Positions 16,564-57,127 of a DNA stretch of 64,000 nt are shown here, piece by piece. The notes under the pieces were generated by a model. That model had not been told where the DNA came from. It saw only the letters and a program-made list of their open reading frames with translations, and searched no databases. This DNA comes from Anaerolineae bacterium (GTDB lineage Bacteria; Chloroflexota; Anaerolineae; DUEN01). Positions within the stretch are counted from its first letter, which is position 1; each line of letters begins with the position of its first letter. Position numbers and translations under genes: made by a program. The stretch lies in contig JANXBS010000005.1 in assembly GCA_025060615.1 (NCBI GenBank), positions 124,001-188,000 of the forward strand. Reading direction: 5' to 3'.

Positions 16564-17091
16564 CTACGCTGATGTGTTCAGTCTCATGATGATTTCCTCT
16601 TGCGACAGGCGAGTCTGTCGAGCGATCTCGACTACATTTATCCCTTGAGAGGCCAGAAACCGAACTTGACGGTTCACCTCAGAGGGCTCTTCGGTTCTCG
16701 TGGCCTGGCTAATCACTTTAGCCGACAGCCTTTGATCCTCCATGGCGATGACAGGGCAAGCCATCTCGGCTGTGACAGAAGCATCTGGGGCGGGCTCATC
16801 AGTTGAGACCGAGTCTTTCGCGCGTTTGGCCTCAGGCATCTGCGAGCCATCGGTGATGTTTTCCGCCCTTGCAATGAGAGCCAATAGCTCCTCTCGTCTT
16901 CGGCTCAGATGAGCGCTGATCTGCTGCGCAGTTCGCGTCAAATCCTCAGACAGCTCGGTGACTTGCTCTTCCCAGAGCGCCAACGGTCCCTCTGCCTCGA
17001 TAGTTTGCCATATCTTTCGAGCCAAGCATACGGCATATAGAGCCATCCCTATGGCTAGGAAGCTAAGAAACAGGCTCAGCGGTTCGAACAT
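16564..17091 (-). CDS. SwrB/YlxL-like single-pass membrane protein
   Basis: The 175-residue protein has one N-terminal membrane helix (about 5-25), a coiled coil (about 35-75), a poorly conserved acidic stretch and a C-terminal helix-turn-helix-like end (VNRQVRFLASQGINVVEIARQTRLSQEEI). This layout and its place right after fliA fit the SwrB/DUF2802-type proteins that help activate the flagellar export gate in Bacillus. ATG 17091 follows GGAGGAGCT. The gene overlaps the end of fliA by 29 nt. Confidence 0.65.
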   Translation of the reverse strand: MFEPLSLFLSFLAIGMALYAVCLARKIWQTIEAEGPLALWEEQVTELSEDLTRTAQQISAHLSRRREELLALIARAENITDGSQMPEAKRAKDSVSTDEPAPDASVTAEMACPVIAMEDQRLSAKVISQATRTEEPSEVNRQVRFLASQGINVVEIARQTRLSQEEIIMRLNTSA

Positions 17092-17920
17092 AGCTCCTCC
17101 CACGTCCTTTTCCATATGAAGCCCCGTTAGCACACAGGCTTGCCCGCAAGTAGAGGATGATCTTAGCGTGTAACTGGCACACCCTCGCCTGTGACAAATC
17201 AAGCACCTCACCGATCTCCCGCATCGTCAAACCTTCGTAGTAGTAAAGGGACAATAATAATTGCTCGCGCTGTGGGAGTCGCAACAGCGCCTCTTTCAAT
17301 GCCTGCCGCAATTCCTCTTCTTCGATCTGCTCAAGCAGCTCATCTTCAACGGGATCCTTTAGGAGGTCTGCTAAAGCCACTGGGGGTTCTCCCTTGAAAA
17401 TGGCGAGCGGGGCATCCAACGACAAGATAACGAACCCGGCTTCGATCAGAGCCTGCTCATAAGCAGCCTGTCCCATGCCAGTATACGATATCACCTCTTC
17501 GTCCGTGGGGATACGTCCTAATCGCTGTTGTAGACTCTCTATGGCCTTACGAACCTGGTTCACGCGCTGACGGGCCAAGCGCGGCAATGGATCTAGCGAA
17601 CGCAACGCGTCCAGGATGCTGCCGCGAATCCGGCTAATCGCGAAGGTTTCAAAGCGATAGCCCCGCTCTGGTTCGAACCGCTCAATGGCCTCAATGAGGC
17701 CAATGATCCCATATCCGATCAGGTCTTCCTCGTCCACGCCGTTTAACGGTTGCACTCCCATGCGCCCGACGACTCGTCGCACTAAAGAGACATAGCTCAG
17801 GATCAACTGCTCGCGCGCCGCGGCATCCCGGGTCGCTCGATATCTAGCCCAGAGCTGGTCGAGATGTTTCTTTGAGCCGTCTGGCTCTCGCTGGCGCGGC
17901 AACCGCTTTGTCCCAGTCAT
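17063..17920 (-). CDS. fliA: Flagellar sigma factor sigma-28 (FliA/WhiG family)
   Basis: The 285-residue protein has sigma regions 2 (ERFEPERGYRFETFAISRIRGSILDALR, about 81-108), 3 (about 115-150) and 4 (LPQREQLLLSLYYYEGLTMREIGEVLDLSQARVCQLHAK, about 215-255). The RIRGSILDALR sequence is typical of FliA/SigD. It recruits RNA polymerase to late flagellar genes and is held by FlgM. No clear sigma-28 promoter was found in this window, so its targets (for example flagellin) may lie elsewhere. Confidence 0.92.
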   Translation of the reverse strand: MTGTKRLPRQREPDGSKKHLDQLWARYRATRDAAAREQLILSYVSLVRRVVGRMGVQPLNGVDEEDLIGYGIIGLIEAIERFEPERGYRFETFAISRIRGSILDALRSLDPLPRLARQRVNQVRKAIESLQQRLGRIPTDEEVISYTGMGQAAYEQALIEAGFVILSLDAPLAIFKGEPPVALADLLKDPVEDELLEQIEEEELRQALKEALLRLPQREQLLLSLYYYEGLTMREIGEVLDLSQARVCQLHAKIILYLRASLCANGASYGKGRGRSYVRTAEPVS

Positions 17921-17948
17921 GGGTCAGTCCCTGCCATATCCCATGGAC

Positions 17949-18293
17949 TCAGCTTGAAGCAGGTACCGCGTAGCCTTCTCTATCGGCGTCGTTCGAGTGG
18001 TTGTCATCGGTCTGTCCCCTTTCAGCAGAGGCCGACTCCAGCCCTGACGGCGATACGGCCGCCGATGAACTCGCTTCGGCAGCTGCTGGCCCTTCGGATG
18101 AACGGGCAGGTGTGGGCAATAGCGCCAGAATCGCCGCCCAACTCAATACTCCAGAGCCTACCAAAGCCACGGCCATACGAGCGATCATCGCATCGAAGCC
18201 AACCCCGGACAGTAAGCTGATTATGGCGACGAACAACGTAATCGTTAGACATAGCAAGTACATAGTGCGAGCGATCGAGTTCAATGCAGGCAT
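17949..18293 (-). CDS. Small membrane protein in the place usually taken by flhG
   Basis: The 114-residue protein has two N-terminal membrane helices (about 10-30 and 40-62) and a disordered Ala/Ser/Glu-rich tail. ATG 18293 follows AGGAGGGGAGG. It lies between flhF and fliA, where flhG is expected in many flagellar loci. It has no P-loop and is not FlhG. Function not recognised. Confidence 0.6.
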   Translation of the reverse strand: MPALNSIARTMYLLCLTITLFVAIISLLSGVGFDAMIARMAVALVGSGVLSWAAILALLPTPARSSEGPAAAEASSSAAVSPSGLESASAERGQTDDNHSNDADREGYAVPASS

Positions 18294-18343
18294 CCTCCCC
18301 TCCTGCCTTTTTTTCATCCCTCATCCTGCAAGAAGCTGGTCAT

Positions 18344-19513
18344 CTACAGTTGCGAGCGGTCAGCAGCGAGCTTGTGTAGGCTAAACACCTCCGATAGACG
18401 TGGCGAGAGCTCTGAGGGGGGCCATAAGCTGCCCTGAATAACCCGATTCGCCAGATCCTCGGCGGAGGCCAGTTCCCAGTCCGTCGGGACGCGTCGCCCA
18501 GTGGTGATACAGCTCACCGGCAGCCCATAGCGCCATGCCAGGCTAACTGCAGCACCGATGCTTGTGGCCTCATCTGCTTTGGTGAAGACCAACCCATCGA
18601 GAGGCACCAGGCTGAAATGTCGGACGATCTCCTCCATCTCTTGATAGGCGGTGGTACACGCTACCGCCAAATACACGGACCGCGATGGCACGGCTAGTAG
18701 GAACTCTCGCAAAGCTTTCAGGCCGGCCTGGTCATGCTGGCTCTGGCCAGGCGTGTCTACCAGGATCAGCACCTGATCCGTTTGGGCCTGTACGATACCA
18801 GTCAATTCCTCAGGCGTATAGGCGATCTCAACAGGGATTCCTAGGATGCTACCGTATCGCTGAAGCTGAAAGGCCCCACCCAACCGAATCGTGTCAACGC
18901 TTACTAAAACCACAGGCCGGTGATGTTCTCGCGCGCAGTAGCTAGCAAGCTTGACAAGCGTCGTCGTCTTGCCCACACCCGTTGGCCCGATCACGAAGAC
19001 GACCCTATTCATCTGCGCGCCCACTACCATCGGATAAGTGGGGATTTTGCTCCGCAGATGGCGGGCGACGCAAGATTTAGCCGTCTCTTCATCTGCAGCG
19101 GCGACGGCGCTCAACTCTGATGCAGCCGCCAGCACCACGTCAGCTGCTAATTCAGGCGAGAGGGACTGGCTGAGAAGTTGCGAGTAAGCCATTTGCAAGC
19201 CCCGCTCCAGCGCCGGCAACCGGGCGCTCCGCACCTCCCAAGTCAGGCGAGCAATAACTTCGCGCAGAGCCGCCAGCTCGGCCTGAACTTCCCGAGGAAG
19301 AGCCCATACCGGCTGGCGTTCCTCCACATGTCCAGCTTGCGCTCGTGCAGCGGATTTTAAGTCGACGGCAGCGATCACCTCGAGCAGGGGACGGCGCAGC
19401 CATCCCCTGCGGATCCGCCGTGAGTGCAGGATCACGGCATCGGGGCCCAGGCGTTCCTTGATCATAGCCAACGCCTGAGCCATATCCTGCGCCTGAAATC
19501 GCTCAACTCGCAT
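18344..19513 (-). CDS. flhF: SRP-type GTPase FlhF
   Basis: The 389-residue protein has the FlhF N-terminal domain (MRVERFQAQDMAQALAMIKERLGPDAVILHSR), an NG-type GTPase with P-loop GPTGVGKT (176-183), DTIRLGG, DTPGQ near 255 and TKADE near 315. FlhF sets the place and number of flagella at the cell pole, usually with FlhG. The start overlaps the flhA end by 11 nt. No flhG is found nearby. Confidence 0.93.
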   Translation of the reverse strand: MRVERFQAQDMAQALAMIKERLGPDAVILHSRRIRRGWLRRPLLEVIAAVDLKSAARAQAGHVEERQPVWALPREVQAELAALREVIARLTWEVRSARLPALERGLQMAYSQLLSQSLSPELAADVVLAAASELSAVAAADEETAKSCVARHLRSKIPTYPMVVGAQMNRVVFVIGPTGVGKTTTLVKLASYCAREHHRPVVLVSVDTIRLGGAFQLQRYGSILGIPVEIAYTPEELTGIVQAQTDQVLILVDTPGQSQHDQAGLKALREFLLAVPSRSVYLAVACTTAYQEMEEIVRHFSLVPLDGLVFTKADEATSIGAAVSLAWRYGLPVSCITTGRRVPTDWELASAEDLANRVIQGSLWPPSELSPRLSEVFSLHKLAADRSQL

Positions 19514-21620
19514 CCTCAGCCTCCTCCAACTCGATCATCCCCTCGGTATAGATCTCCACCCCCGATGCCACCTCGTTATAAGCTAATATGGCCAGCGTAG
19601 GTAACGAGCGCTGGAGAAAGCGACGTAAAGGCAGACGCAGGCGGCTCGAACAGAGCAGCGTCGGCTGATAGCCACGCGTGATCATGCGCTCTACCTGGGC
19701 TCTCACCTCTCGCAATAGTGTCTGTGCCCTGTCAGGGCTCAAAGCGATAGCCATTCCCCAATCGGTGGGCTGCAGTGCAGCGATCAATGTGGACTCGAGA
19801 CCGGGTCCCAGCGTGAGCACATGCAACGCACCATCTGGGCCGCGCAATTGATTGGTGATAGCTCGGCTCAAGGCCAGCCGTGCATACTCGCTTAGGAGGT
19901 CGGGGTCTCGTGTCTCCGAGACACGGCTCATAATCGCCTCGAGGATGGAAAGCAGATCTCGGATGGAGATCCGCTCACGCAGTAAGTTTTGCAGGACTTT
20001 CTGGACCAATCCTATTCCCACGCGATCACTCAGCACCTCGTCTACCACGGCTGGATAATCTGGTCGCAACTTCTCGATGAGCTTCTGAACCTCCTGACGC
20101 CCTAACAGCTCAGCTGCATGAGCTTTAGCGACTTCCATCAAGTGTGTGGTGATGACAGAACTCGGATCCACTACCGTATAGCCCAAGATCTCGGCCCGCT
20201 CTTTGGCCTTTGCGTCAATCCAAAGTGCAGGCATCCCAAACACTGGCTCTTTAGTAGGCAATCCCTTGACCTCCTCGCCCAGGGTATTGAGATCGACTTC
20301 CGGGCCAGGTGAGAGGGCGAGGAAATGATTTACCAGCACCTCCCCCCGGCCAACCTCCTCGCTGCGCAGCTTGATCGTGTAGGTGTTGGGCGGCAAGGTC
20401 AAGTTGTCCCGAATCCGGACCTTGGGCAACACAAATCCGAGTTCCAGGGCGATCTGACGACGGACAGCGCTGATACGCGGTAATAAGCTACCTTCCTGGG
20501 CCTCATCCACTAGTGAGATCAGACCATATCCCAACTCCAGCTCCAATGGATCCACCCGCAGCAACGCGCTCACATCATCGGCTTCTTCCATCGGAGTCGG
20601 ACGGGTTTCCTCGGGCTTCTCGATCCGGCGTGCCATCTCCATATGGCTCATCAGATAGCTGGCCCCACCCACCAGGGCTCCCAGCACGAAGAAGGGCACT
20701 TTAGGAAGCCCAGGCACCAGGCCGAATAAAACCAGCATGCCGGCCACAATCATTAACGCTCGCGGATAGGTGATCGTCTGCTGCAGGATCTCCTGCCCCA
20801 TGTTCTCAGTCGCTGCTGCGCGCGTCACGATAATGCCAGTTGCCGTCGAGACCAGCAGCGCAGGGATCTGCGCGACCAGCCCATCGCCGACCGTGAGCAG
20901 CGTATACGTCCTCAAGGCTTCAGGGAGCGTCATACCCATTTGCAAAATGCCAATGGCGAATCCACCCAGGATGTTCACCAGGATAATCGCTACGGCGGCG
21001 ATGGCGTCACCTTTGACGAATTTGCTAGCCCCATCCATTGCCCCATAGAAGTCAGCTTCCAACTCAATCAGATGCCGTCGCTGACGAGCCTGCTCCTCGT
21101 TGATCAGGCCGGCATTCAGATCGGCATCAATACTCATCTGCTTGCCGGGCATAGCATCCAACGTGAAGCGCGCCGCCACCTCAGCCACGCGCCCAGCGCC
21201 GTTGGTGATGACCACGAACTGGATGATCATGAGCAACAAGAAGATGACGATACCGACGATATAGTTGCCTCCGACGACAAACTGGCCAAAGGCCTGGATC
21301 ACCTGGCCGGCATAGGCGTGGAGAAGGATGGACCGAGACGAAGAGATATTCAGCCCCAGCCGGAACAGGGTCACGATCAGCAACAACGAGGGAAACACGC
21401 TGAACTGTAACGGCTCTCGCACGTACATCGTGATCAGCAGGATCGCGATAGAGATGCTGAAGTTAAGTGTCAACAGCAGATCGAGCAATATAGGTGGTAT
21501 AGGGATCACCATCATGGTCATGATCCCAACCACCGCGACCGCCAGCACGATGTCGCTTTGCCGCAGGACTCGATTCAGGTTTCGCAGGTACAAGGTACCA
21601 GTGCCAGGATTCGCTGTCAT
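19503..21620 (-). CDS. flhA: Flagellar type III export gate protein FlhA
   Basis: The 705-residue protein begins with about eight membrane helices containing the conserved FHIPEP-like region (LINEEQARQRRHLIELEADFYGAMDGASKFVKGDA, about 173-207). A cytoplasmic domain (about 360-690) follows; it forms the nonameric ring that receives chaperone-substrate complexes. Length is as usual for the family. It lies between flhB and flhF. Confidence 0.95.
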   Translation of the reverse strand: MTANPGTGTLYLRNLNRVLRQSDIVLAVAVVGIMTMMVIPIPPILLDLLLTLNFSISIAILLITMYVREPLQFSVFPSLLLIVTLFRLGLNISSSRSILLHAYAGQVIQAFGQFVVGGNYIVGIVIFLLLMIIQFVVITNGAGRVAEVAARFTLDAMPGKQMSIDADLNAGLINEEQARQRRHLIELEADFYGAMDGASKFVKGDAIAAVAIILVNILGGFAIGILQMGMTLPEALRTYTLLTVGDGLVAQIPALLVSTATGIIVTRAAATENMGQEILQQTITYPRALMIVAGMLVLFGLVPGLPKVPFFVLGALVGGASYLMSHMEMARRIEKPEETRPTPMEEADDVSALLRVDPLELELGYGLISLVDEAQEGSLLPRISAVRRQIALELGFVLPKVRIRDNLTLPPNTYTIKLRSEEVGRGEVLVNHFLALSPGPEVDLNTLGEEVKGLPTKEPVFGMPALWIDAKAKERAEILGYTVVDPSSVITTHLMEVAKAHAAELLGRQEVQKLIEKLRPDYPAVVDEVLSDRVGIGLVQKVLQNLLRERISIRDLLSILEAIMSRVSETRDPDLLSEYARLALSRAITNQLRGPDGALHVLTLGPGLESTLIAALQPTDWGMAIALSPDRAQTLLREVRAQVERMITRGYQPTLLCSSRLRLPLRRFLQRSLPTLAILAYNEVASGVEIYTEGMIELEEAEDAS

Positions 21621-21636
21621 CGCATCGCCCTATGCC

Positions 21637-22695
21637 TTATACGTATATAGGCCTGGTCTGCCGCAGCCGATACACGAAAGCCAAAACTTCGGCCACGGCC
21701 TGGTATAGCGCAGGCGGGATCTGCGTTCCGACTTCCAAGCGGATCAAAGCGTGGGCCAGCGGAGGGTTTTCTACAATAGGGACACGATGCTGTTGGGCCA
21801 CTCGGACGATCTGAGCGGCGATCACTCCCTTCCCCTTTGCTACCACCGTGGGAGCTAACATAGTTCGCCCGTTATACTGAAGCGCGACTGCCAAGTGTGT
21901 TGGGTTGGTGATGACTACATCGGCCTTCGGCACCTGCTGCATCATGCGCAAACGTGCCAAACGCCGCTGCATCTGGCGAATGCGCCCCTTCAAATGCGGA
22001 GACCCCTCGGCGCTCCGCATCTCCTCCTTAACCTCCTCGCGCGTCATGCGGATGCTTCGCTGAAACCGCCGGCGTTGATAGACGTAGTCTATGACGGCAA
22101 TACCCCCAAATAGCAATGCCACCCGTAGTACCATTTCATACCCGGTTTTCGCCAGTAGCGCCATCCCGTTAGATATGCCCGCTGTAGAGGCTGCTGCAAT
22201 CTCGGCCAGCCGCTGAGGTAACGGCACGAAGACCACCAGGCCGATCACCGCGAGCCTTCCGAGGTCTTTAAGGACTTCCATTAGGCTGTGTCGAGATACT
22301 AAGATCCTCAAGTTAGCCATGGGGTTGATACGGTTCAGGTTGGGCTTCAACAGCGTGAGGGCGACCAGGCCACGCGTCTGAGCCAATGTGCTCAAAACTC
22401 CTGTTACCATCATGACGATGACCAATGGGCCTATCAGCCCCATAGCAAACAGGGCTAGGGCATTGCCCCTCGCCTGCAAGGCTGCCAGAGACAGGTCTGG
22501 CCGCACGAGTACGCCGAAGGCCTCACGCATCAACTGACCTAGCCCGTTGATAAGCTCGTCCCCCTGTGAGCGCAGCATGTAAACGCCGACCAGCAGGCTC
22601 AATGCGCTGCTCAACTCCACACTCTTGGCGACTTGCCCCCGTCGCCGGATTTCGGCCAGGCGACGGGGAGTAGGCGCTTCGGTTCGCTCGCTCAT
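21637..22695 (-). CDS. flhB: Flagellar export switch protein FlhB
   Basis: The 352-residue protein has four membrane helices (about 28-45, 82-105, 140-160, 185-205) and a cytoplasmic domain with the self-cleavage motif NPTH at 264-267. Cleavage there, with FliK, switches export from hook to filament proteins. The N-terminal SERTEAPTPRRL block is typical. It sits between fliR and flhA. Confidence 0.95.
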   Translation of the reverse strand: MSERTEAPTPRRLAEIRRRGQVAKSVELSSALSLLVGVYMLRSQGDELINGLGQLMREAFGVLVRPDLSLAALQARGNALALFAMGLIGPLVIVMMVTGVLSTLAQTRGLVALTLLKPNLNRINPMANLRILVSRHSLMEVLKDLGRLAVIGLVVFVPLPQRLAEIAAASTAGISNGMALLAKTGYEMVLRVALLFGGIAVIDYVYQRRRFQRSIRMTREEVKEEMRSAEGSPHLKGRIRQMQRRLARLRMMQQVPKADVVITNPTHLAVALQYNGRTMLAPTVVAKGKGVIAAQIVRVAQQHRVPIVENPPLAHALIRLEVGTQIPPALYQAVAEVLAFVYRLRQTRPIYV

Positions 22696-22716
22696 CTCAT
22701 AAAGCTTTCCGAACTC

Positions 22717-23478
22717 TTACCGGACGGCTAACAACACGTTGCGCGCCGCCTGGAATATCACCTGTTCCACAACTGGCATCATGGATGGCCATGCTATTAT
22801 CAACGCGGCCAGGCCGGCGGCGACCTTCAACGGCATCCCTAAAACGAACACTGGTGCTCGTGGGATCACTCGGTTGATCATGGCCAGTGCGAGGTCAGTA
22901 AGCAGCAGCGTAGCCAGGACTGGCAATGCAATCTGGAGCGCGCTCACGAAGACGGCCTCGCTGAAACGAATCAATCGCTCCGCCGTAATGGCATCCATTA
23001 CTAAGGAGCCCGGCGGCGCAACTTCCAACGTGCGCCCGAGTGCCACCAATAAGGCGTGATGTCCTCGAATCGCAAAAAAGATGAGCGTCGCCAATAACAC
23101 ATAGAATTGCTCGATCAGGCCCCCCTGGCTTGGCAGGACTGGATTGATCAAGACGGGGAAGCTGAGCCCCATCTCCATGCTGATGATGCCGCCGGCCATC
23201 TCCAAGGCATGAAACGCTAACATGCTCACGAATCCGATCAAAGCCCCTATCAAAACCTCAGCTCCCACGGCAATCAGAAATGTAAGCCCATCCGAAGAGG
23301 AAGCGACAGGTGGATTTGCCACAAGCGTTGCGTAGGTCAAAGCCATGGCGAGGCCGATCTTCACCGGCGCAATCACCGCCCGATGGCCGAACACTGGCCC
23401 CGTCGCCAGTGCGGTGAGCACCCGCACAAAGGTCAGCACTCCCTGTTCTGCTATAGCACCTGATAGATGTAGGTCCAC
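22717..23478 (-). CDS. fliR: Flagellar export gate protein FliR
   Basis: The 253-residue protein has about six membrane helices and the conserved FliR region EVLIGALIGFVSMLAFHALEMAGGIISMEMGLS (about 73-105). It forms, with FliP and FliQ, the export pore. The start is GTG 23478 after GGGAGGATGTGACCG. Confidence 0.93.
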   Translation of the reverse strand: MDLHLSGAIAEQGVLTFVRVLTALATGPVFGHRAVIAPVKIGLAMALTYATLVANPPVASSSDGLTFLIAVGAEVLIGALIGFVSMLAFHALEMAGGIISMEMGLSFPVLINPVLPSQGGLIEQFYVLLATLIFFAIRGHHALLVALGRTLEVAPPGSLVMDAITAERLIRFSEAVFVSALQIALPVLATLLLTDLALAMINRVIPRAPVFVLGMPLKVAAGLAALIIAWPSMMPVVEQVIFQAARNVLLAVR

Positions 23479-23497
23479 CGGTCACATCCTCCCATCC

Positions 23498-23767
23498 TCA
23501 ACGCGCCAAATTTGGCAGACTGGTGAACAGGCCAGCTGTATACTGCAGCAAATCCTGAAGCATCCAGGATCCCAGCAACGCCAACACCAGGAAAAACACC
23601 AACAGCTTAGGCACAAACGTCAATGTGACCTCATGAATCTGGGTAACCGCCTGGACGAGGCTGACGATGAGACCCACTAGAAGACTACTCAAAAGCAGGG
23701 GCAACGCTAACATCAGCGTGATGATCAACGCATTGCGCCCTAACTCCAGCACCATCGTCTCCGTCAT
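23498..23767 (-). CDS. fliQ: Flagellar export gate protein FliQ
   Basis: The 89-residue protein has two membrane helices (about 15-38 and 50-72) and the family motif QAVTQIHEVTLTFVPKL. Length is standard. ATG 23767 follows AAGGGGATCTCAT. It is part of the FliP5Q4R1 pore complex. Confidence 0.93.
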   Translation of the reverse strand: MTETMVLELGRNALIITLMLALPLLLSSLLVGLIVSLVQAVTQIHEVTLTFVPKLLVFFLVLALLGSWMLQDLLQYTAGLFTSLPNLAR

Positions 23768-23780
23768 ATGAGATCCCCTT

Positions 23781-24551
23781 CTAAACATGAAAGCTCATCA
23801 CCAGCGAACGCACCACCAGATGCCAACCATCTACCATGACGAAAAGCAACAGCTTAAAGGGAAGGGAAATCACCGTTGGCGGTAGCATCATCATACCCAT
23901 GGACATCAGTGCACTCGATACGACCATGTCCACTACCAGAAATGGGATATAAACCACAAAGGCCATCTGAAAGGCCGTCCTCAGCTCGCTGATGACAAAG
24001 GCTGGGATCAGCGCGTATGTCGGCACGTCATCCGCCGTGCGCGGGCGAGGGAGCTGAGCTAGATGGATGAAGAGTGCTAGATCCTCCTCGCGAGCCTGCT
24101 TCAACATAAATTCCCGAATCGGCTGCATCCCTCGTTCCATTGCCTCCTGCTGGGAGAGCGTCCCAGCAATAAACGGCTGCAATGCGTCCCGGTTAACTTG
24201 CTCCCACACCGGATTCATCACGAAAAAGGTCAAAAAGAGCGAAAGGGCGATAATCACCTGGTTAGGAGGCAATTGAGGAAGGCCGATGGCATTTCGTAAG
24301 ATGGAGAGAACCACTGTGATGCGAATGAAGGCCGTGGTCACAATCAAGATAGCCGGCACCAAGGCCAGGGTGGTAAGCATAATAAGGAGCTGAAGCTCAG
24401 CTACTAGCTCCTGACCGTTTCCCGGCATACTGACGCGTAAGTCGAAGTCGGGTGAGCCGGCGTCCTCCGCCCGAATGACACAGCCGGTCACTCCTACGGC
24501 GAGAAAAAGGATGGCCAAGATCAGCGCAATGCCACCTGTTCTGAAACTCAT
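23781..24551 (-). CDS. fliP: Flagellar export gate protein FliP
   Basis: The 256-residue protein has a signal peptide (about 1-25), then membrane helices and the FliP signatures RITVVLSILRNAIGLPQLPPNQV and the C-terminal VISLPFKLLLFVMVDGWHLVV. It builds the export pore. Its ATG overlaps the fliO stop by 4 nt. Confidence 0.95.
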   Translation of the reverse strand: MSFRTGGIALILAILFLAVGVTGCVIRAEDAGSPDFDLRVSMPGNGQELVAELQLLIMLTTLALVPAILIVTTAFIRITVVLSILRNAIGLPQLPPNQVIIALSLFLTFFVMNPVWEQVNRDALQPFIAGTLSQQEAMERGMQPIREFMLKQAREEDLALFIHLAQLPRPRTADDVPTYALIPAFVISELRTAFQMAFVVYIPFLVVDMVVSSALMSMGMMMLPPTVISLPFKLLLFVMVDGWHLVVRSLVMSFHV

Positions 24552-25159
24552 ATCCCCTCCGTGCGGCCCAGCTCTCGCAGCCGATCGATCACCTCGCGCA
24601 GCCGATTGAACGCGGCGTCCATTTTCACCTGCGGCATCGATGTCATTGGCTCATCTGCTATGGATGCCAGCTGCGCCGCAAAGGGACTTGGTTTTCCCAC
24701 GGTCTCCCGATCCATTTCCGCCAATAGGCTTACCTGATGATCCGTAGCGCCTAGTACCAACAGCCGCCCATTGATCTCAACCAGATGAAGCGTCCGATGA
24801 GGGGACAGGTGAACAGTCTCCCATACTTGGATCCAGTTAGCCCTAGCAGCCGTTAGGCCCCTCCGCCACAAAAAGGCTCTGATCCCCCACAGGGTGCCGT
24901 AAATGGCTATCACCACCAAGAGCAGGCTGCCAATCACTCCCAAGGCCGTTCGCCATCCTGCTGGCTCTGGATTGGCCGAGATCGCCGGCACCAATTCCTC
25001 GTAATCCCGCACAAAACCGGTGGACTCGAGTCCTGCAGATAGCTGAGAACCGCCCAAGACCGGATCTTGCGCGTGGCTGATCCCTGTCAAAACAACCCAC
25101 CAACCCACAATCAGGAGGACCACCCTCAGCCATCGGGTAATACGGAAAACCCTGCCCAT
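24548..25159 (-). CDS. fliO: Flagellar export assembly protein FliO
   Basis: The 203-residue protein has a signal peptide (cleavage near HAQD, residue 31), a membrane helix (about 68-92) and the cytoplasmic FliO domain (IQVWETVHLSPHRTLHLVEINGRLLVLGATDHQVSLLAEM). FliO helps FliP fold into the export gate. It overlaps fliP by 4 nt and is flanked by fliN. Confidence 0.85.
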   Translation of the reverse strand: MGRVFRITRWLRVVLLIVGWWVVLTGISHAQDPVLGGSQLSAGLESTGFVRDYEELVPAISANPEPAGWRTALGVIGSLLLVVIAIYGTLWGIRAFLWRRGLTAARANWIQVWETVHLSPHRTLHLVEINGRLLVLGATDHQVSLLAEMDRETVGKPSPFAAQLASIADEPMTSMPQVKMDAAFNRLREVIDRLRELGRTEGI

Positions 25160-25174
25160 CCCAGCCTCTCTCGT

Positions 25175-25510
25175 TCAGCCCAGAGAACGCACGCGTGCTG
25201 CTGGCGGGACGATGTCCGTCACACGCACGCCAAACATGTCGTCAATGACTACGACTTCACCGTGGGCGATTAGCTTGCCGTTTACCAGGATGTCCACCAC
25301 TTCGCCAGCCACTTTGCTCAGCTCCACCACTGAGCCAGGCCCCAGCGCGAGCACCTCGCGGATGGGCATCTCAGTTCGTCCTAACTCTACGGTCACACGC
25401 AGTGGGACATCGAGGAGCAAATCCAGGTTTCTAGCACCTGAGCTGGGCTGTCCCGTCCCTAGGGGTGTTAGCTCTGCCGGCTGTACGGTAGCAGGCTCTT
25501 TCTCTGACAT
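25175..25510 (-). CDS. fliN: Flagellar motor switch protein FliN
   Basis: The 111-residue protein consists mainly of one SpoA/FliN domain ([73 protein letters not shown]). It forms the bottom of the C-ring. ATG 25510 follows GAGAGGTGATTGCAT. No CheC-like part is fused to it, so it is FliN, not FliY. Confidence 0.93.
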
Positions 25511-25516
25511 ATGCAA

Positions 25517-26539
25517 TCACCTCTCTTCAAGTCTCTCGGCCTCTCCGGTGATCACTTGAGTGATCTCGACGGCCAGGCGAGTGCCCCGGGTGCCTGGCCG
25601 CGCCCAGAATCGGTGCACTCCTCCTACCAAGACCTTGATCTCGTGATGGGCTGCCGCGTCTAGTGGGATCAGATCACCGGGCTTTAATTCGTTCAGCTCT
25701 TGCAATGTCGTGTCTACCTCCCCCAAAATCGCCGTCACCTCCACAGGCACCTCTTGCAAGTGGGCGATAAGATGCTGAATTTCAGCGGTTCGCTCCAGAT
25801 CGTCAGAGGCTTCAGTGCCAGCAATCCATGCCTGTGGGCTCAGCTTAGCGCCCACCGGCTTTAGGAGCGCATATGGAAGCCCCAACCGTAGATAACCATT
25901 CACCTCACCCAGCCGCACCTCAAACACGATCCATACGATGGCATCGGTCAACAAGCCAAGCTGCACAAAATACATATTCAGCAACGTCTCTTCCACCTGA
26001 GGCTTCACTGGAAGTACGGCTGTCCATGCCTCTGCCAGGCTATCCAGAATTCGGACAACCACTCCTTCCAGTAGAGAAAGCTCTAGGTCCGTGAACTCCC
26101 TATGCCGTTCCCATGCCCGTCCTGGCCCTCCCAACAGGCGATCAATGATCACATCAGCTAGCGGCGCGCTGATCTCCAGAACCATCTGCCCCTGTAGCGG
26201 CTTCAAACTAACGATGTTATAGATGGCCGGCCCAGCTAGCTGGGATAGAAAGGTCGCGTAAGTGCCTTGATCAATATCTGCCAGATTAGCGTCTACTGCA
26301 GTCCGTAGATAGGCAGAGAGGGAAATAGCCATTCGCCGTCCCATGTTCTCGTGCATCATGCGCAGCGCACGGATTTGTTCCTTAGAGAACTTGTCAGGGC
26401 GACGGAAGTCGTAGTGCCGAATGGCGGCTTGCTGATCCGACGGCGGCGCGGGGGCTAGCAGGGTCTCACCACTCGTGGGCAGCATAGCCAAAAGCGCGTC
26501 TATCTCCTCCTGGGTCAGGATCTCGCTAGGAGTCGTCAT
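25517..26539 (-). CDS. fliM: Flagellar motor switch protein FliM
   Basis: The 340-residue protein has the N-terminal CheY-binding peptide (EILTQEEIDALLAML, residues 6-20), the CheC-like middle domain (about 45-230) and a C-terminal SpoA domain (about 255-330). CheY-P binds the N-terminal peptide and changes the direction of rotation. It lies next to fliN. Confidence 0.95.
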   Translation of the reverse strand: MTTPSEILTQEEIDALLAMLPTSGETLLAPAPPSDQQAAIRHYDFRRPDKFSKEQIRALRMMHENMGRRMAISLSAYLRTAVDANLADIDQGTYATFLSQLAGPAIYNIVSLKPLQGQMVLEISAPLADVIIDRLLGGPGRAWERHREFTDLELSLLEGVVVRILDSLAEAWTAVLPVKPQVEETLLNMYFVQLGLLTDAIVWIVFEVRLGEVNGYLRLGLPYALLKPVGAKLSPQAWIAGTEASDDLERTAEIQHLIAHLQEVPVEVTAILGEVDTTLQELNELKPGDLIPLDAAAHHEIKVLVGGVHRFWARPGTRGTRLAVEITQVITGEAERLEER

Positions 26540-26572
26540 GCTAGGCCTCTTGCTACCGGATATCAGGGTTGG

Positions 26573-27145
26573 CTACTGAACCACGAAATCGGTGAAATAT
26601 ACAGCCCCAACATATTTGCCATCGCCCAGGCTGGCATTCAGTTGTTCCATCAGCTCCTCTTTGAGCTGCTGTTTGCCCTCTAAAGAGAAAATCTCAGCAA
26701 ACGTCTTGCTGCTTAAGATCGAGATCACCAAATCGTCTATGATGGGCTTTTGACGCATTAGCTCTTCTTTAAAGTGCGTCTCTTCGGCCATTCGCTTCTC
26801 TGGTGGGAGCCGATAGAACTCTGCGCTCTCCGGCAGAAATTCCAGCGTGATCGAGACGCGCAGATAGCGGTACCCACCCGGGTCTGCCAGATTTACGACG
26901 CGCTCTCCCAGCGAAAACAGAATCCCATGGCCGCGCAACGTTGTCTGATGGACTGGAGCCACAGGCCCTATGGGCTCTGCAGGGATAGGCGTGCCGGGCT
27001 GTGTCTGAGTCGGCCCGATTTGGAGCTGAATCTGGATGGGCTTAGGCAAGCCCGAGGGAACCATGAAATATCCCACGCCGAACAGCAACAGGGCTATAGC
27101 TCCACCGATGATGAGCAATTTGCGATTGGCAAACAATTTTTTCAT
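26573..27145 (-). CDS. fliL: Flagellar basal-body protein FliL
   Basis: The 190-residue protein has an N-terminal membrane helix (about 10-29) and the FliL periplasmic domain (YLRVSITLEFLPES, then LVISILSSKTFAEIFSLEGKQQLKEELMEQLN). FliL surrounds the stator and raises torque. The ATG overlaps the motB stop by 4 nt. It precedes fliM. Confidence 0.92.
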   Translation of the reverse strand: MKKLFANRKLLIIGGAIALLLFGVGYFMVPSGLPKPIQIQLQIGPTQTQPGTPIPAEPIGPVAPVHQTTLRGHGILFSLGERVVNLADPGGYRYLRVSITLEFLPESAEFYRLPPEKRMAEETHFKEELMRQKPIIDDLVISILSSKTFAEIFSLEGKQQLKEELMEQLNASLGDGKYVGAVYFTDFVVQ

Positions 27146-27927
27146 GGCTGTCCACCGTGATGGAGATTGGCATTGGCCGCAGGGCCTTCGCCTGGCAGAT
27201 TTAAGCCATCGATAAGGTAATCGTCCGGCGGATAGAGGATCACGATGTCGGCGCGCCGATTTTGGGCACGGTGCTCGCGAGAGTCATTGGGGAACAGCGG
27301 GGCATACTCGGCGCGGCCCACCGCAACCAACCGTTCAGGCTGAATATGGCCTTTTTCGATCAGGTAACGGACCACACCAGCTGCACGAGCTGCACTCAGC
27401 TCCCAATTTGTCGGGTACAGGGGGTTGTTGGTCGGCAGATCATCCGTGTGGGCCTCAACCCGGATAGGATTTGGCATGGGGGCGATGATGCGCGCGATCT
27501 CGTCCAGCATCGGTAGGGATTCTGGGCTTAGCTCTACCCCGCCCGATGGAAACAATAGAGAAGCGGAAAGGGTAATGGCGATCCCCTCTCGGCGCATGTT
27601 GACCGCCACAAACGGATGAGTGCCAGTCGCCCGGCTGCGCTCGGCCAGGGCCTGGGAGATGGCCAGAAAATCCTTGCTACGCTGCGGCAATGACTGAAAG
27701 GGAAGTGCCCCACCGCCCTCGCCCGGCAAAATCCCTTGACCTCCGCTACTTGGCAGAACGCTAATCCCAAAGCCCTGGCGCAGCGAAATGGCCAACTTAG
27801 TAAAGCGCTCTAGGTCGGCCTTGGAACCGGCATACATGATGATGAAGAAGGCTAGCAAAAGCGTAATGAGGTCCGCGTAAGTCAACAACCAGCGCAGGCC
27901 TCCTGCACTGCCATGTCCGCCCGCCAT
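27142..27927 (-). CDS. motB: Flagellar stator protein MotB
   Basis: The 261-residue protein has an N-terminal membrane helix with the ion-binding Asp19 (WLLTYADLITLLLAFF), a plug and an OmpA-type peptidoglycan-binding domain (about 115-240; RVEAHTDDLPTNNPLYPTNWELSAARA). It anchors the stator to the cell wall. The sequence around Asp19 does not settle H+ or Na+ use. It starts 4 nt after motA. Confidence 0.94.
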   Translation of the reverse strand: MAGGHGSAGGLRWLLTYADLITLLLAFFIIMYAGSKADLERFTKLAISLRQGFGISVLPSSGGQGILPGEGGGALPFQSLPQRSKDFLAISQALAERSRATGTHPFVAVNMRREGIAITLSASLLFPSGGVELSPESLPMLDEIARIIAPMPNPIRVEAHTDDLPTNNPLYPTNWELSAARAAGVVRYLIEKGHIQPERLVAVGRAEYAPLFPNDSREHRAQNRRADIVILYPPDDYLIDGLNLPGEGPAANANLHHGGQP

Positions 27928-27931
27928 CGCC

Positions 27932-28732
27932 TCACGCTCCTTCAGCCACAGCCCTCGCCGGCGTCGGCTCTGCCCTCCCCCGCAAGCTGGGGGACAGATA
28001 CGCTTCTAGCTTTTCCCGGATGATATGTGGGTTGTCACCCGCTTGGATGGCCAATATCCCCTCGGTCATGATCTTGCGAAGGAGGACCTCTTCCTGACTA
28101 TGAGCCTTCAGCTTGCCGGCCAGGGGTAAGAAGACAAGATTGGCCACGCCGACACCATACATTGTGGCCACAAATGCTGTAGCGATTCCCTTGCCCAGAT
28201 GGGAGGACTCCTCCAAGTGACTCAACACGTTGATGAGCCCCAGGACAGCCCCCAAGACCCCCATCGTTGGCGCATAGCCGCCCATCGCCTCCAGAACACC
28301 ATATCCATGAGCGTGGCGTTCTGCCATCAGCTGAGTGTCGGTCTCCAGGATATGCCGGATCTCAACGGGATCCACGCCGTCTACTACCAGCATGATCCCT
28401 TTCTTCAAGAAGGGGTCCGTAATGTTCTGCTCTTCCTCTTCTAGGGATAACAGCCCCTGTCGCCGGGCTTTATCAGCTAGGCTCACCAACTGCGAGACTA
28501 ACTCTTCAACCTGATGGTGAGGTCCTCCGGTGATAGTACGGATCACCATCTTCGGTAGTGCCTGTATTAACGCCAGCGGGAAGTTCACCAAGGTTGCGCC
28601 GATGGTGCCGCCAAAGACGATCAAAGCGCCTGGCAAGTTGACCAAAGCGATGAGAGCCCCTCCCTCCACCACCACAGAGGCCAGGATGCAGCCTATCCCT
28701 ACGAGAAGCCCCAGAATCGTCCCGATGTTCAT
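27932..28732 (-). CDS. motA: Flagellar stator protein MotA
   Basis: The 266-residue protein has four membrane helices (about 5-22, 30-50, 150-170, 183-203) with the MotA/PomA motif ATVGG-like GGYAPTMGVLGAVLGLINVL before helix 3. The large cytoplasmic loop (about 55-145) contacts FliG. Its ATG overlaps the flbD stop by 4 nt. Confidence 0.94.
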   Translation of the reverse strand: MNIGTILGLLVGIGCILASVVVEGGALIALVNLPGALIVFGGTIGATLVNFPLALIQALPKMVIRTITGGPHHQVEELVSQLVSLADKARRQGLLSLEEEEQNITDPFLKKGIMLVVDGVDPVEIRHILETDTQLMAERHAHGYGVLEAMGGYAPTMGVLGAVLGLINVLSHLEESSHLGKGIATAFVATMYGVGVANLVFLPLAGKLKAHSQEEVLLRKIMTEGILAIQAGDNPHIIREKLEAYLSPSLRGRAEPTPARAVAEGA

Positions 28733-28947
28733 CGCTCCGCTCCGAGCTCTGATGGCTCCGCCTTGCGATTGGCAATCCGCTGTCGGTAAGCGATCACCCG
28801 CTCGATGATTTCCGCAACGGATTGCTGTACTACAAGCTTATGGCCTGTGGTGAGAGAGATCACGGTATCGGGCCTTTGCTCTACCGTCTCGATCAGATCC
28901 GCGTTGACTACCAATTCGCTGCCGTCCAGACGAGTCACGTAGATCAC
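28729..28947 (-). CDS. flbD: FlbD/SwrD-family flagellar protein
   Basis: The 72-residue protein has the family pattern IYVTRLDGSELVVNADLIETVEQRPDTVISLTTGHKLVV. The start is GTG 28947, which gives the family N-terminus and follows GGAGAGGAGGGC; the frame is open further up but without support. In Bacillus SwrD raises motor power; its place at the head of motA-motB fits. It is the first gene after the repeat-bearing promoter at 28998-29052. Confidence 0.88.
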   Translation of the reverse strand: MIYVTRLDGSELVVNADLIETVEQRPDTVISLTTGHKLVVQQSVAEIIERVIAYRQRIANRKAEPSELGAER

Positions 28948-28997: not shown

Positions 28998-29052
28998 ATC
29001 CTATCATGGTGCCCCAAAAGAGAGGGTAAAGGGAACGTAAAGCGAGTGTAAA
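28998..29052 (-). promoter_or_regulatory. Promoter with three 11-bp-spaced TTTAC repeats before flbD
   Basis: On the minus strand TTTAC occurs at 29052-29048, 29041-29037 and 29030-29026, each exactly 11 bp apart. After a further 22 nt comes TGA-TAGGAT (hexamer 29003-28998), a fair extended -10 box. Tandem sites one helical turn apart are the usual targets of OmpR/PhoB-type response regulators, and such a gene lies 86 bp away at 29138. No good -35 box is present, as expected for an activator-dependent promoter. The same layout stands before the flgC operon. Confidence 0.55.
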
Positions 29053-29071
29053 GATCCCGTATCACCCGCCA

Positions 29072-29109
29072 ACAAAAAGAAAGCCGGCCGCTCTCGCAGA
29101 TGGCCGGCT
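29072..29109 (-). terminator. Rho-independent terminator of the chemotaxis/response-regulator operon
   Basis: On the minus strand AGCCGGCC and GGCCGGCT pair over 8 bp around a 12-nt loop, followed by TTCTTTTTGTT. It lies 29 nt past the response-regulator stop and separates that transcript from the flbD operon. Confidence 0.85.
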
Positions 29110-29137
29110 CCCCAAGCAAAACTCTCCACAGGTTCAA

Positions 29138-29827
29138 TCAAGCGGGAACATAATAACCATGCCGGTAAACAGTGCGGATGTACTTTGGGTTCTTGGGCGT
29201 CGTTTCAATTTTGTTCCGGAGGTTCATGATCTGCATGCGCACCACGGTGGGATCCCCGGTGCCTGGATAATAGCGCCAGACCTCCTGCAGCAACTGTTCC
29301 GCCGAGATCACTTCGCCGGCCCGGCTCATCAGATAGTACAACAGCTCAAACTCGACGGGGGTCAATTGTACAGTGCGCCCATTGACCTCTACCTGATATT
29401 TGGTGGCATCCAGGCGCATTCCCCCGGCCTGTAACTGCTTAGCCGAGCCATTTTTCTTCCGGGTCCGACGCAAGAGGGCTTCCACGCGCAACTCCAACTC
29501 TCGTAGATCAAAGGGCTTCACCAGATAGTCATCTGCCCCCGCCTCGAATCCCTCGATCCGATCGTTCAACATGCTGCGCGCCGTCAGGAACATCACCGGC
29601 GTGTCCGCCAACTTGATGCTCGACCTAAGGCGGCGACAGACTTCATATCCGTTTAGGTCTGGCATCATCACATCTAGGAGGATCAGATCGGGGAACACTC
29701 TGGGGGCCTCTTCCAAGGCTTTGGTTCCACTGTTTGCCACGATGACGAAGTGCCCCTGTCCTTTCAGCACAGCTTCGATCATCCTGCAGACTCGAAGGTC
29801 GTCATCTACCACCAGAATGCGCGCCAT
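29138..29827 (-). CDS. OmpR/PhoB-family response regulator
   Basis: The 229-residue protein has a receiver domain (2-120; phosphoacceptor Asp52 in LILLDVMMPDLNG, Lys in VKPFD) and a C-terminal winged helix (about 130-228; LTPVEFELLYYLMSRAGEVISAEQLLQEVW and RTVYRHGYYV). ATG 29827 follows AGGAGGTCTTCGCAG. It is the last gene before a strong terminator, 145 bp beyond the cheX end. No sensor gene is adjacent; the nearest kinase is at 36222. It may bind the TTTAC repeats just downstream; this is inference. Confidence 0.9.
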   Translation of the reverse strand: MARILVVDDDLRVCRMIEAVLKGQGHFVIVANSGTKALEEAPRVFPDLILLDVMMPDLNGYEVCRRLRSSIKLADTPVMFLTARSMLNDRIEGFEAGADDYLVKPFDLRELELRVEALLRRTRKKNGSAKQLQAGGMRLDATKYQVEVNGRTVQLTPVEFELLYYLMSRAGEVISAEQLLQEVWRYYPGTGDPTVVRMQIMNLRNKIETTPKNPKYIRTVYRHGYYVPA

Positions 29828-36221: not shown

Positions 36222-37661
36222 GTGGCTCAGGACGCGATGAAACCCCTATTTACCCCATTTCCACAGAGAACGGATGTCAAAAGACGGACGCGAAGGTGGC
36301 ACAATTGGTTTAGCCTGCGACGAGGGACTCGTATCCTGCGTTGGGCCGGCATTGTACTAGTGATCCTGGCCAGCGCGATCCTCTATCGGGTTCACGGACC
36401 TATAGATGGCCTTCTGTTCGCCCTCTGCTTCGGACTGCTCGCAGCGGGATATGAGCTGTGGATCGCCCGCCTTGAGACCAGGGCTGAAGCCCTTGAGACA
36501 CGGCTGCATCGTCAGACCACGGTTCTAAATGACGTGAGCGATGGCATCGTGGTGTTGGATCAGCAATACCGCGTGGTGATGCTTAACCCTGCTGCCGGCC
36601 AGCTCACCGGCTGGGCACCAGAACAGGCTCAAGGGGTCCCCTGCCGTGAGATCTTCCGTTGCCATAATGAGCGGGAGATCGCTCTTTGCTACACGGAGTC
36701 TTGCCCTTTACAGGCTACCAGCCTTGCTGGTGAGGCACAGCGTCACGTGGTGGTGTTCCATCGGCAAGATGGTCAACACCCTTGGGTGGAGATGGCATGT
36801 TCTATCGTGGCCGAGCGCGAGGGTCAGCCCTCGTTTTTATGCACCCTTCGCGACATCTCTGAGTCAAAAAAGCTGGAAAAGCTTAAGTCTGACTTCATCG
36901 CCAGCGTGTCGCATGAGCTGCGATCACCATTGACGATCATTTATGGCTACAGCCAGATTTTGGAACGTACCCTTAAGGACGAAGAGTTACTTTACTACGC
37001 CACAGCCATCAGCGATGAGTCACGCCATCTGAGCAGGCTCGTGGAGGACTTGCTAGACTTCTCGCGTATTGAAGCCGGCCGCCTTCGCTTGAACCTGGAG
37101 TGGTGCGATCTCTCGCAGATCATCCTCGAAACGGTTAAGATATTTGAGGGATACTCCCAAAAGCACCCGATTCGCTTGAATCTCGCGTCAAGCGCTCTGC
37201 CCATCCGAGCTGATCCCGCCCGTATCCGGCAAGTGTTAACTAACCTCCTCAACAACGCGATCAAGTATTCACCCGAGGGAAGCCCTATTGAGGTGACTTT
37301 GACCACGGGGCTCGCCTCAGAGAAAGGGCAAGCGGAAAAGACAGCCCGCGTCAGCGTACGCGACGAGGGCCCAGGCATCGCCCCAGAACACCACCAACGC
37401 ATCTTCGAACGGTTTTATCGGGTGAACCCCTCGCTGGCGGGCGGGGAGGGGGTGGGATTAGGATTGGCTATCAGTAAGGCCATTGTGGAAGGCCATGGAG
37501 GAAAGATCTGGGTTGAGAGCGAGCCGGGAAAAGGCAGCACTTTTTACTTCACCTTGCCGCTGCCCTTGCCGGCAGTCCTGATTTCGTCGGAAGGGGAACC
37601 CGACGCTGAATTACAGGAGCCCGATAGGCCTCATCCAAAAGCTACACCCATCTCCGAGTAA
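36222..37661 (+). CDS. PAS-domain sensor histidine kinase with cysteine cluster
   Basis: The 479-residue protein has a two-helix membrane anchor (about 42-56 and 60-80) with hardly any outside loop, a PAS domain (about 100-212), a HisKA domain with His231 (SVSHELRSPL) and an HATPase (about 330-450; NNAIKYSPEGS, DEGPGI, GVGLGLAI). In the PAS domain four cysteines (141, 147, 156, 161) form C-x5-C-x8-C-x4-C, which could bind metal or sense redox state. The start is GTG 36222; ATG 36237 is also possible. It is the only plus-strand gene inside the locus and may pair with the OmpR-type regulator at 29138. Confidence 0.88.
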   Translation: MAQDAMKPLFTPFPQRTDVKRRTRRWHNWFSLRRGTRILRWAGIVLVILASAILYRVHGPIDGLLFALCFGLLAAGYELWIARLETRAEALETRLHRQTTVLNDVSDGIVVLDQQYRVVMLNPAAGQLTGWAPEQAQGVPCREIFRCHNEREIALCYTESCPLQATSLAGEAQRHVVVFHRQDGQHPWVEMACSIVAEREGQPSFLCTLRDISESKKLEKLKSDFIASVSHELRSPLTIIYGYSQILERTLKDEELLYYATAISDESRHLSRLVEDLLDFSRIEAGRLRLNLEWCDLSQIILETVKIFEGYSQKHPIRLNLASSALPIRADPARIRQVLTNLLNNAIKYSPEGSPIEVTLTTGLASEKGQAEKTARVSVRDEGPGIAPEHHQRIFERFYRVNPSLAGGEGVGLGLAISKAIVEGHGGKIWVESEPGKGSTFYFTLPLPLPAVLISSEGEPDAELQEPDRPHPKATPISE

Positions 37662-56869: not shown

Positions 56870-56924
56870 ACTATATCTCGAGGGCTCGCTGAGATGAGTA
56901 AAAGTGAGATAAGGGATTTGTAAA
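56870..56924 (-). promoter_or_regulatory. Promoter of the flgC operon with 11-bp-spaced TTTAC sites
   Basis: On the minus strand TTTAC occurs at 56924-56920 and 56902-56898, 22 bp apart, with a weaker CTTAT exactly midway (56913-56909). After 22 nt comes TATAGT (56875-56870), a 5-of-6 match to a -10 box; no -35 box fits. Repeat spacing and the 22-nt distance are the same as before flbD. The shared word TGTAAAGATYCCG (plus strand, 56919-56931 and 29047-29059) is also seen at both. The leader to ATG 56839 is about 25 nt. The rest of the 288-nt space to folB (56925-57127) holds nothing that I recognise. Confidence 0.55.
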
Positions 56925-57127
56925 GATTCCGCAAAATCGAAGCCCGTAGCTGTTCCTCCTCAGCCAAGCTGGTAAAGTGAGGTTTTTGGATAGATGCTCT
57001 TTATCACCCCCTTTGTTGCAATAACTTCAAAACAACTAGAGGAAAAGGCTGAGAGCTTACTGACAGACTGCTCCCAAAGCTTTATGGTTCTCCCTGACTT
57101 GACATGTCCCGAAAACTCGAGGACGCG

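Follow-up and report, generated by a model that had tools for sequence, protein, structure and literature searches.

The window analyzed here is a stretch of 64,000 nucleotides from an Anaerolineae bacterium (contig JANXBS010000005.1, positions 124,001 to 188,000 of the forward strand), whose genome comprises 3.86 Mb in 73 contigs. In keeping with this class, the nearest relatives of its motA among named records come from Anaerolineae, Caldilineae and other Chloroflexota. It carries two predicted flagellar operons, each led by an array of 11-bp direct repeats that we refer to as flagellar boxes 1 and 2:

17063-28947, minus strand: likely operon from flbD to fliA (motor, export gate and flagellar sigma factor)
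28729-28947, minus strand: flbD, GTG start set by comparison, protein MIYVTRLDG... (Pfam FlbD 1e-26)
28998-29006, minus strand: extended -10 TGATAGGAT (TGn + TAGGAT), aligned with TGnTATAnT of 35 sites
29020-29063, minus strand: flagellar box 1, GATACGGGATC TTTACACTCGC TTTACGTTCCC TTTACCCTCTC, four 11-bp direct repeats upstream of flbD
29078-29113, minus strand: intrinsic terminator (GC-rich hairpin and T-run) between the regulator gene and box 1
29138-29827, minus strand: OmpR-type response regulator (receiver and Trans_reg_C, ATG at 29827), the proposed binder of the boxes
36222-37661, plus strand: PAS-containing histidine kinase, divergent from cheA
55541-56839, minus strand: lead gene (432 aa) of the second box-led operon, conserved before flgC in flagellated relatives
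56870-56875, minus strand: -10 TATAGT of box 2, 22 nt after the last TTTAC, as at box 1
56892-56935, minus strand: flagellar box 2, TTTGCGGAATC TTTACAAATCC CTTATCTCACT TTTACTCATCT

The first cluster begins with flbD and follows the order flbD-motA-motB-fliL-fliM/Y-fliO-P-Q-R-flhB-flhA-flhF-...-fliA, and its fliA product matches FliA_WhiG at 233 bits, above the cut-off. A preliminary description of this DNA had placed TTTAC words on the minus strand at 29052, 29041 and 29030, with 22 nt leading to TAGGAT, and these coordinates are exact on the sequence: the strand reads TTTACACTCGC TTTACGTTCCC TTTAC (ending at 29026), and after 22 nt, the last three of which are TGA, comes TAGGAT at 29003-28998. 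The 11-bp periodicity that it reported also held, but its count of three repeats did not, since the consensus of relatives and the 11/22/33 pairing of their TTTAC-like words give the box four units (29063-29020). Unit 1 is GATACGGGATC (29063-29053), and its counterpart GATACGAGACT is kept in the same-family genome G002; a further in-phase unit, TTTTGGGGCAC, lies downstream of box 1 and is not conserved. The regulator gene was said to lie 86 bp away behind a terminator, and indeed its stop is at 29138, 86 bp from 29052, with the hairpin (29113-29078) in between. The hairpin has an energy of -23.3 kcal/mol with a z-score of only -1.85, and a shorter stem was found too. The assignment of this neighbor to the OmpR type was confirmed by Pfam, with the receiver at 96.1 bits and Trans_reg_C at 83 bits, both above the cut-offs for OmpR/PhoB-family membership.

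The promoter was also said to lack a -35 element. This is true of both promoters in the window, which have CCCTCT (box 1) and CTCATC (box 2) at the -35 place, but not of most relatives, in which unit 4, TTTACTGACA, overlaps a degenerate, passable -35 (cTGACA, 17 bp from the -10). Judged by its sequence, the -10 of the box 1 promoter is of the housekeeping type. FliA (sigma-28) promoters have a -10 of the GCCGATAA type, which we found neither in the consensus of 35 sites (TGnTATAnT) nor in the window's own TAGGAT and TATAGT; this consensus points to sigma-70 rather than FliA as the probable reader of the promoter.

The preliminary description proposed looking for the pattern in related genomes, and it is kept upstream of flbD in relatives. 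Among 396 genomes of the class, 23 carry flbD, and the promoter is readable in 22 (the copy of G001 ends at a contig edge). All 22, the window's genome included, have tandem 11-bp units and a -10 at a fixed distance before flbD, the units being degenerate in G153, G219, G340 and G378, which are Caldilineae-like. The 35 sites from other genomes align without gaps to the consensus TTTACGCAAnn TTTACGnnnnn TTCACGCCnnn TTTACTGACAn, followed by TGnTATAnT, and the A at columns 4, 15, 26 and 37 is invariant. When we paired TTTAC-like words across 21 regions upstream of flbD, distance 11 occurred 30 times, 22 occurred 20 times and 33 occurred 9 times, compared with at most one pair at any other distance up to 40 and about 0.2 in shuffles. 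The autocorrelation at 11/22/33 and the 35-site alignment thus both display the tandem direct repeats at about 10-11 bp that are a feature of OmpR/PhoB-family operators. All 20 relatives' flbD loci searched were re-found, with scores of 18.9-63.9 bits; for 19 the locus's own site was left out, G324 was outside that training set throughout, and a reversed-column control gave no match of at least 8 in the same loci. This leave-one-out procedure was aided by near relatives (G153/G219, G340/G378, G371/G381 and G053/G123/G311), and the G014 site was in the training set and absent from the leave-one-out set. At E<=0.01, the flbD sites of G340 and G014 were not re-found by the model.

The bare repeat is a poor search tool. 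Its exact form, the TTTAC triple, occurs at one place in the 3.86 Mb of this genome (reversed control, 0) and at 13 places in 8 of 100 class genomes, this one included (control, 2 places). Matches in relatives were mixed, several preceding other genes, and were not taken as direct flagellar support. With up to three mismatches, the triple is not enriched in the window's genome (45 places versus 39 for the reversed control) and many of the inspected places lie inside open frames, so that it was discarded as a genome-wide regulon finder. The exact form exceeds chance; the mismatch-tolerant one does not in this genome. Given the 45 versus 39 places, we regard the bare triple as weak evidence and the comparison with relatives as the convincing part; unlike exact-triple matching, only an alignment-based model separated signal from noise.

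A matrix built without own and same-family (G002) sites gave two sites in the window, at 29063(-) with a score of 32.8 (box 1) and at 56935(-) with 29.0 (box 2). A register shift of box 1 came next at 10.0; as controls, the reversed matrix reached at most 7.4 and the best of 20 column permutations 14.8. On the scale of the whole genome, a sequence-only model trained on the 35 foreign sites returned boxes 1 and 2 alone at E<=10, with box 1 as the best of the genome (6.5e-6) and box 2 as the second and last (0.19), so the genome-wide scan put forward in the preliminary description ends at two sites that both precede flagellar operons. The concentration of sites before motility genes that it named as supporting evidence is seen in relatives as well: at E<=0.01 the model found 86 sites in 20 of 22 flbD-bearing relatives, and 64 of the 86 precede flagellar genes. 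Training sites account for 34 of the 86, and among the 52 held-out sites 30 are flagellar. Assigning each site to the longest ORF beginning shortly after the box, we obtained flbD (19), the 432-aa gene (13, one of them only 31% alike), fliR (11), fliK (7), fliI (4), fliW (4, three by Pfam and one by resemblance), flgC (3), fliA (2) and fliJ (1). The remaining 22 comprise one chemoreceptor and 21 others, two of which are loci without a matrix site above 12. These non-flagellar targets include glycosyl- and nucleotidyltransferases, UDP-galactopyranose mutase, an epimerase and adhesin-like proteins, and could be surface or flagellin glycan genes.

The box also tracks flbD between genomes. It was found in 21 of 23 genomes with flbD and in 11 of 79 without it (28 sites; Fisher 7.6e-12), a comparison in which stricter filters applied to the 79, flbD genomes had supplied the model's training sites and G027 counts among the 11. 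In G027, which is probably flagellated with flbD unassembled, the box lies before fliA; in the flbD-less G060, boxes precede the genes of a small helix-turn-helix protein and of a prepilin-like protein. When the model was run across the phylum, sites appeared in 4 of 400 genomes, all of the same class; this says little on other classes because scoring was limited to 13 candidates per genome and missed the window's own box 2. At motA loci of other phyla, two weak matches in Kryptonia (12.9 and 13.8) were taken as chance.

Some candidates fell below these thresholds. At C6:9533-9598 (+) in the window's genome (L119, L372), three clean TTTACG units keep the 11/33 phase and TACACT follows at 22 nt, before genes for a TPR-glycosyltransferase, an epimerase and a UDP-sugar dehydrogenase. 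The score of 15.8 is under what the model listed, and this is a possible, unproven third site, perhaps for flagellin glycosylation. In G028, fliD and a flagellin gene have a boxed TPR gene (L374) nearby, on the other strand. A variant box, TTTACG / TTTACGG / TTTAGG / TTTACTGA with a -10 of TAGAAT or similar (L309, L310, L311 and L317), is found repeatedly in front of polysaccharide genes of families f41 and f45.

Downstream of the 432-aa gene that follows box 2 lie flgC, fliE, fliF, fliG, fliH, fliI and fliJ. The 432-aa protein (55541-56839) had no match in Pfam or NCBIfam; its homologs in flagellated relatives are 47-61% identical and stand just before flgC, which makes it an unassigned protein family of the early flagellar operon. 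A gene resembling flgB exists apart from it in at least one relative (G088). In eight relatives (L151, L153, L155, L159, L165, L168, L169 and L170), the two operons, one headed by flbD and the other by the 432-aa gene, diverge from each other, and there is a separate box on each strand.

We found the neighboring regulator to belong to a subfamily that is marked in its DNA-binding domain by the signature WxYPxGTGxPxLVRMHIxNLRxKIE, with LVRMHIxNLR as the recognition-helix region and a preceding loop one residue longer than in most aligned OmpR-type paralogues. The window's genome holds 49 further response-regulator matches to this protein, seven of them OmpR-like at E<=1e-35, and a model of the DNA-binding domain identified a single member there, at 166 bits with the next paralogue at 96. 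In the regulator tree, the whole subfamily is a weakly supported grouping (39/49); the subfamily claim is carried by the helix/loop signature and the HMM gap. Members were detected in 20 of 23 flbD genomes, those lacking one (G028, G123 and G001) being 83-87% complete. Full-length identity was too blunt a test of presence and was given up, as the members with divergent receivers (G371, G381 and G075) were found by the DNA-binding-domain model. At a threshold of at least 195 bits, the regulator is present in 14 of 23 genomes with flbD versus 19 of 79 without (p 0.0019). Twelve of these 19 flbD-less subfamily genomes have no box at E<=0.01, and among the 79 the subfamily is present in 7 of 11 with a box versus 12 of 68 without (p 0.003). 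Moreover, a box lies on the same strand within 500 nt past the stop of a subfamily gene at 11 loci, six before flbD and five before other genes, the latter in two genomes with flbD (G149 and G311) and three without (G060, G004 and G042). Nearby boxes were found at 12 of 41 subfamily loci versus 2 of 24 other OmpR loci (Fisher p 0.06; one of these two had been picked for its box). Synteny and co-occurrence thus support the neighboring regulator as the best candidate reader of the box. The histidine kinase at 36222-37661 is a possible partner kinase. A box at L002, initially read as autoregulation of an OmpR regulator, was dismissed because the gene encodes a receiver-only protein.

We consider it highly probable, on the strength of these sequence comparisons, that the repeats are part of a four-half-site operator of the adjacent OmpR-type regulator, which would switch on the flbD and flgC-fli operons. 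The TTTAC repeats first noticed would be the lower part of this operator. If transcription starts some 7 nt past the -10, the first positions of the units fall at about -72, -61, -50 and -39, and two dimers of the regulator, presumably phosphorylated, would occupy a single face of the DNA in head-to-tail order from about -72 to -29. Like PhoB, they would extend over the -35 region, and they would place sigma-70-type RNA polymerase on the extended -10, thereby turning on flbD-mot-export-fliA; box 2 would act in the same arrangement on the operon holding flgC-fliEFGHIJ, and FliA from the first operon would go on to activate late genes. Binding, dimers, phosphorylation, activation and this hierarchy are steps of the model. 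The earlier proposal that the regulator controls motor and export genes is thereby favored by comparative evidence, namely conservation, scans, synteny and co-occurrence.

Could such an array arise without a dedicated reader? A chance repeat in intergenic DNA, as the unenriched mismatched triple might suggest, is hardly credible: phase and position are kept in 22 of 22 readable flbD promoters, and the model scans and the 11/22/33 pairing refute it. It is scarcely more plausible that the phased T-runs form a curved-DNA or UP-like element. The period is near the helical repeat and the words are T-rich, but the T-runs are of only three, C and G positions are kept as well (TTTACG, TTCACG, TTTACTGACA), and almost all instances of the motif in the window's genome lie at flagellar promoters.

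Two further readings grant that the box is a true operator, and we regard both as unlikely, to a similar degree. Another OmpR-type regulator might read it, the neighboring gene being there by chance of synteny; the seven OmpR-like paralogues and the three flbD genomes without a detected subfamily member leave room for this. It fits poorly with three observations: in several families, whether or not they have flbD, a box comes right after the subfamily gene; the subfamily is present in 20 of 23 flbD genomes; and its helix region is distinctive, with a longer loop before it. Alternatively, the regulator might bind the box as a repressor of the flagellar operons and be released on a signal, as could be expected from a box that overlaps the -35 region and whose unit 4 holds cTGACA at 17 bp in most relatives. 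The -10 nevertheless stays uncovered, as the units stop about 16 bp before it, and the window's own promoters lack that -35, which gives them an activator-dependent look. Because cTGACA has been lost and the extended -10 alone remains, promoters of this family should need an activator, the role that we propose for the adjacent regulator.

By the features tested, the regulator is not CtrA, and the control that we propose would work like that of FtcR or CtrA. CtrA belongs to the OmpR family, and Rem, of the ActR/Rem-type regulators, is an FtcR-like OmpR-type flagellar regulator. Direct repeats are bound by head-to-tail dimers of OmpR/PhoB-family proteins, and the affinity of M. tuberculosis PhoP is higher for three or four tandem 11-bp units than for two (PMC4832192). 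PhoP boxes resemble the window box in being 11-bp direct repeats (a 7-bp motif and a 4-bp spacer) with tetra-repeat binding (PMC4832192), and PhoB sites are described as overlapping the -35 region (PMC3348028). The words and regulons of PhoB and PhoP differ from those of the window box, and the PhoB model gave 184.7 bits versus a cut-off of 296. CtrA of Caulobacter and of Rhodobacter sphaeroides fla2 is likewise a response regulator at flagellar promoters; its full site, TTAA-N7-TTAA, is given as a direct repeat with 11 bp per unit, as in the window box, and divergent flagellar promoters are served by one or two such sites, a likeness to the boxed relatives (PMC6180460). It differs in having two units rather than four, TTAA rather than TTTAC, and in being an alphaproteobacterial cell-cycle regulator. 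The window protein reached 148.2 bits on the CtrA equivalog model NF045991, below the cut-off of 350, and the consensus unit of the 35 sites is TTTACG, with TTAA in a minority of units.

FtcR of Brucella is similar in being an OmpR-type flagellar master regulator whose gene lies near flagellar and che genes, and it binds upstream of fliF (PMC8639532, PMC9456535). In contrast to the window regulator, FtcR-like proteins are described in these sources from Alphaproteobacteria (PMC8639532, PMC9456535), and the reported motif is TGTGGGCA, the passages cited describing no 4x11 architecture (PMC9456535). We found this motif absent from the 35-site consensus, and no FtcR model was among the best 25 NCBIfam matches of the regulator. 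The best NCBIfam models were RpaB (214.9 bits, cut-off 330), MtrA and PhoB; none reached its cut-off. The HLR1 element read by cyanobacterial RpaB has the half-site (G/T)TTACA, a core word nearly that of the window box; it comes as two half-sites with 2 nt between them, a 10-bp period, and is described for light/redox-responsive genes (PMC9241938). With a period of 11 and four units, and with the score given above, the window's regulator and box fall outside RpaB/HLR1.

OmpR-type flagellar master regulators are thus known, and it is the subfamily, the four-unit site and the phylum that are new within the open-access literature searched, where we found no paper on transcriptional control of Chloroflexota flagellar genes. 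Flagellar motility has hardly been seen in this phylum: a 2023 paper reports none observed outside Tepidiforma (PMC10284905). Flagellar genes are nevertheless widespread in Chloroflexota. The predicted operator and regulator lend themselves to a direct DNA test and offer a first testable switch for flagella in these poorly studied bacteria; the operator predicts which genes are early flagellar and could tie motility to a signal via a kinase. Adding relatives turns a site found by eye into a regulon.

In other Chloroflexota (L033, L058, L060, L092 and L030), flbD stands directly behind a regulator gene that looks, by eye, to be of the LuxR/NarL type, with no TTTAC box, which suggests that the regulator was swapped between classes. 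We see about an even chance that the regulator subfamily, together with its four-unit box, is an ancient switch for surface appendages in Anaerolineae. On this reading, it would be the master regulator of early flagellar operons in flagellated lineages, and also of genes for flagellin or surface glycans, and in flbD-less lineages the protein-box pair would run other surface and signaling genes, including a type IV pilin. If true, Chloroflexota would gain with this switch their first defined flagellar regulatory circuit. Among flbD-less genomes, we also observed a box of four TTTACG units before a leader, GACTCACCCCCGCAGGGCACCGCTCGG, common to two of them (L006 in G076 and L011 in G009), and boxes before short helix-turn-helix genes of HTH_17/MerR-like type, one of them receiver-fused (L263, L273 and L276, in G060 and G009).
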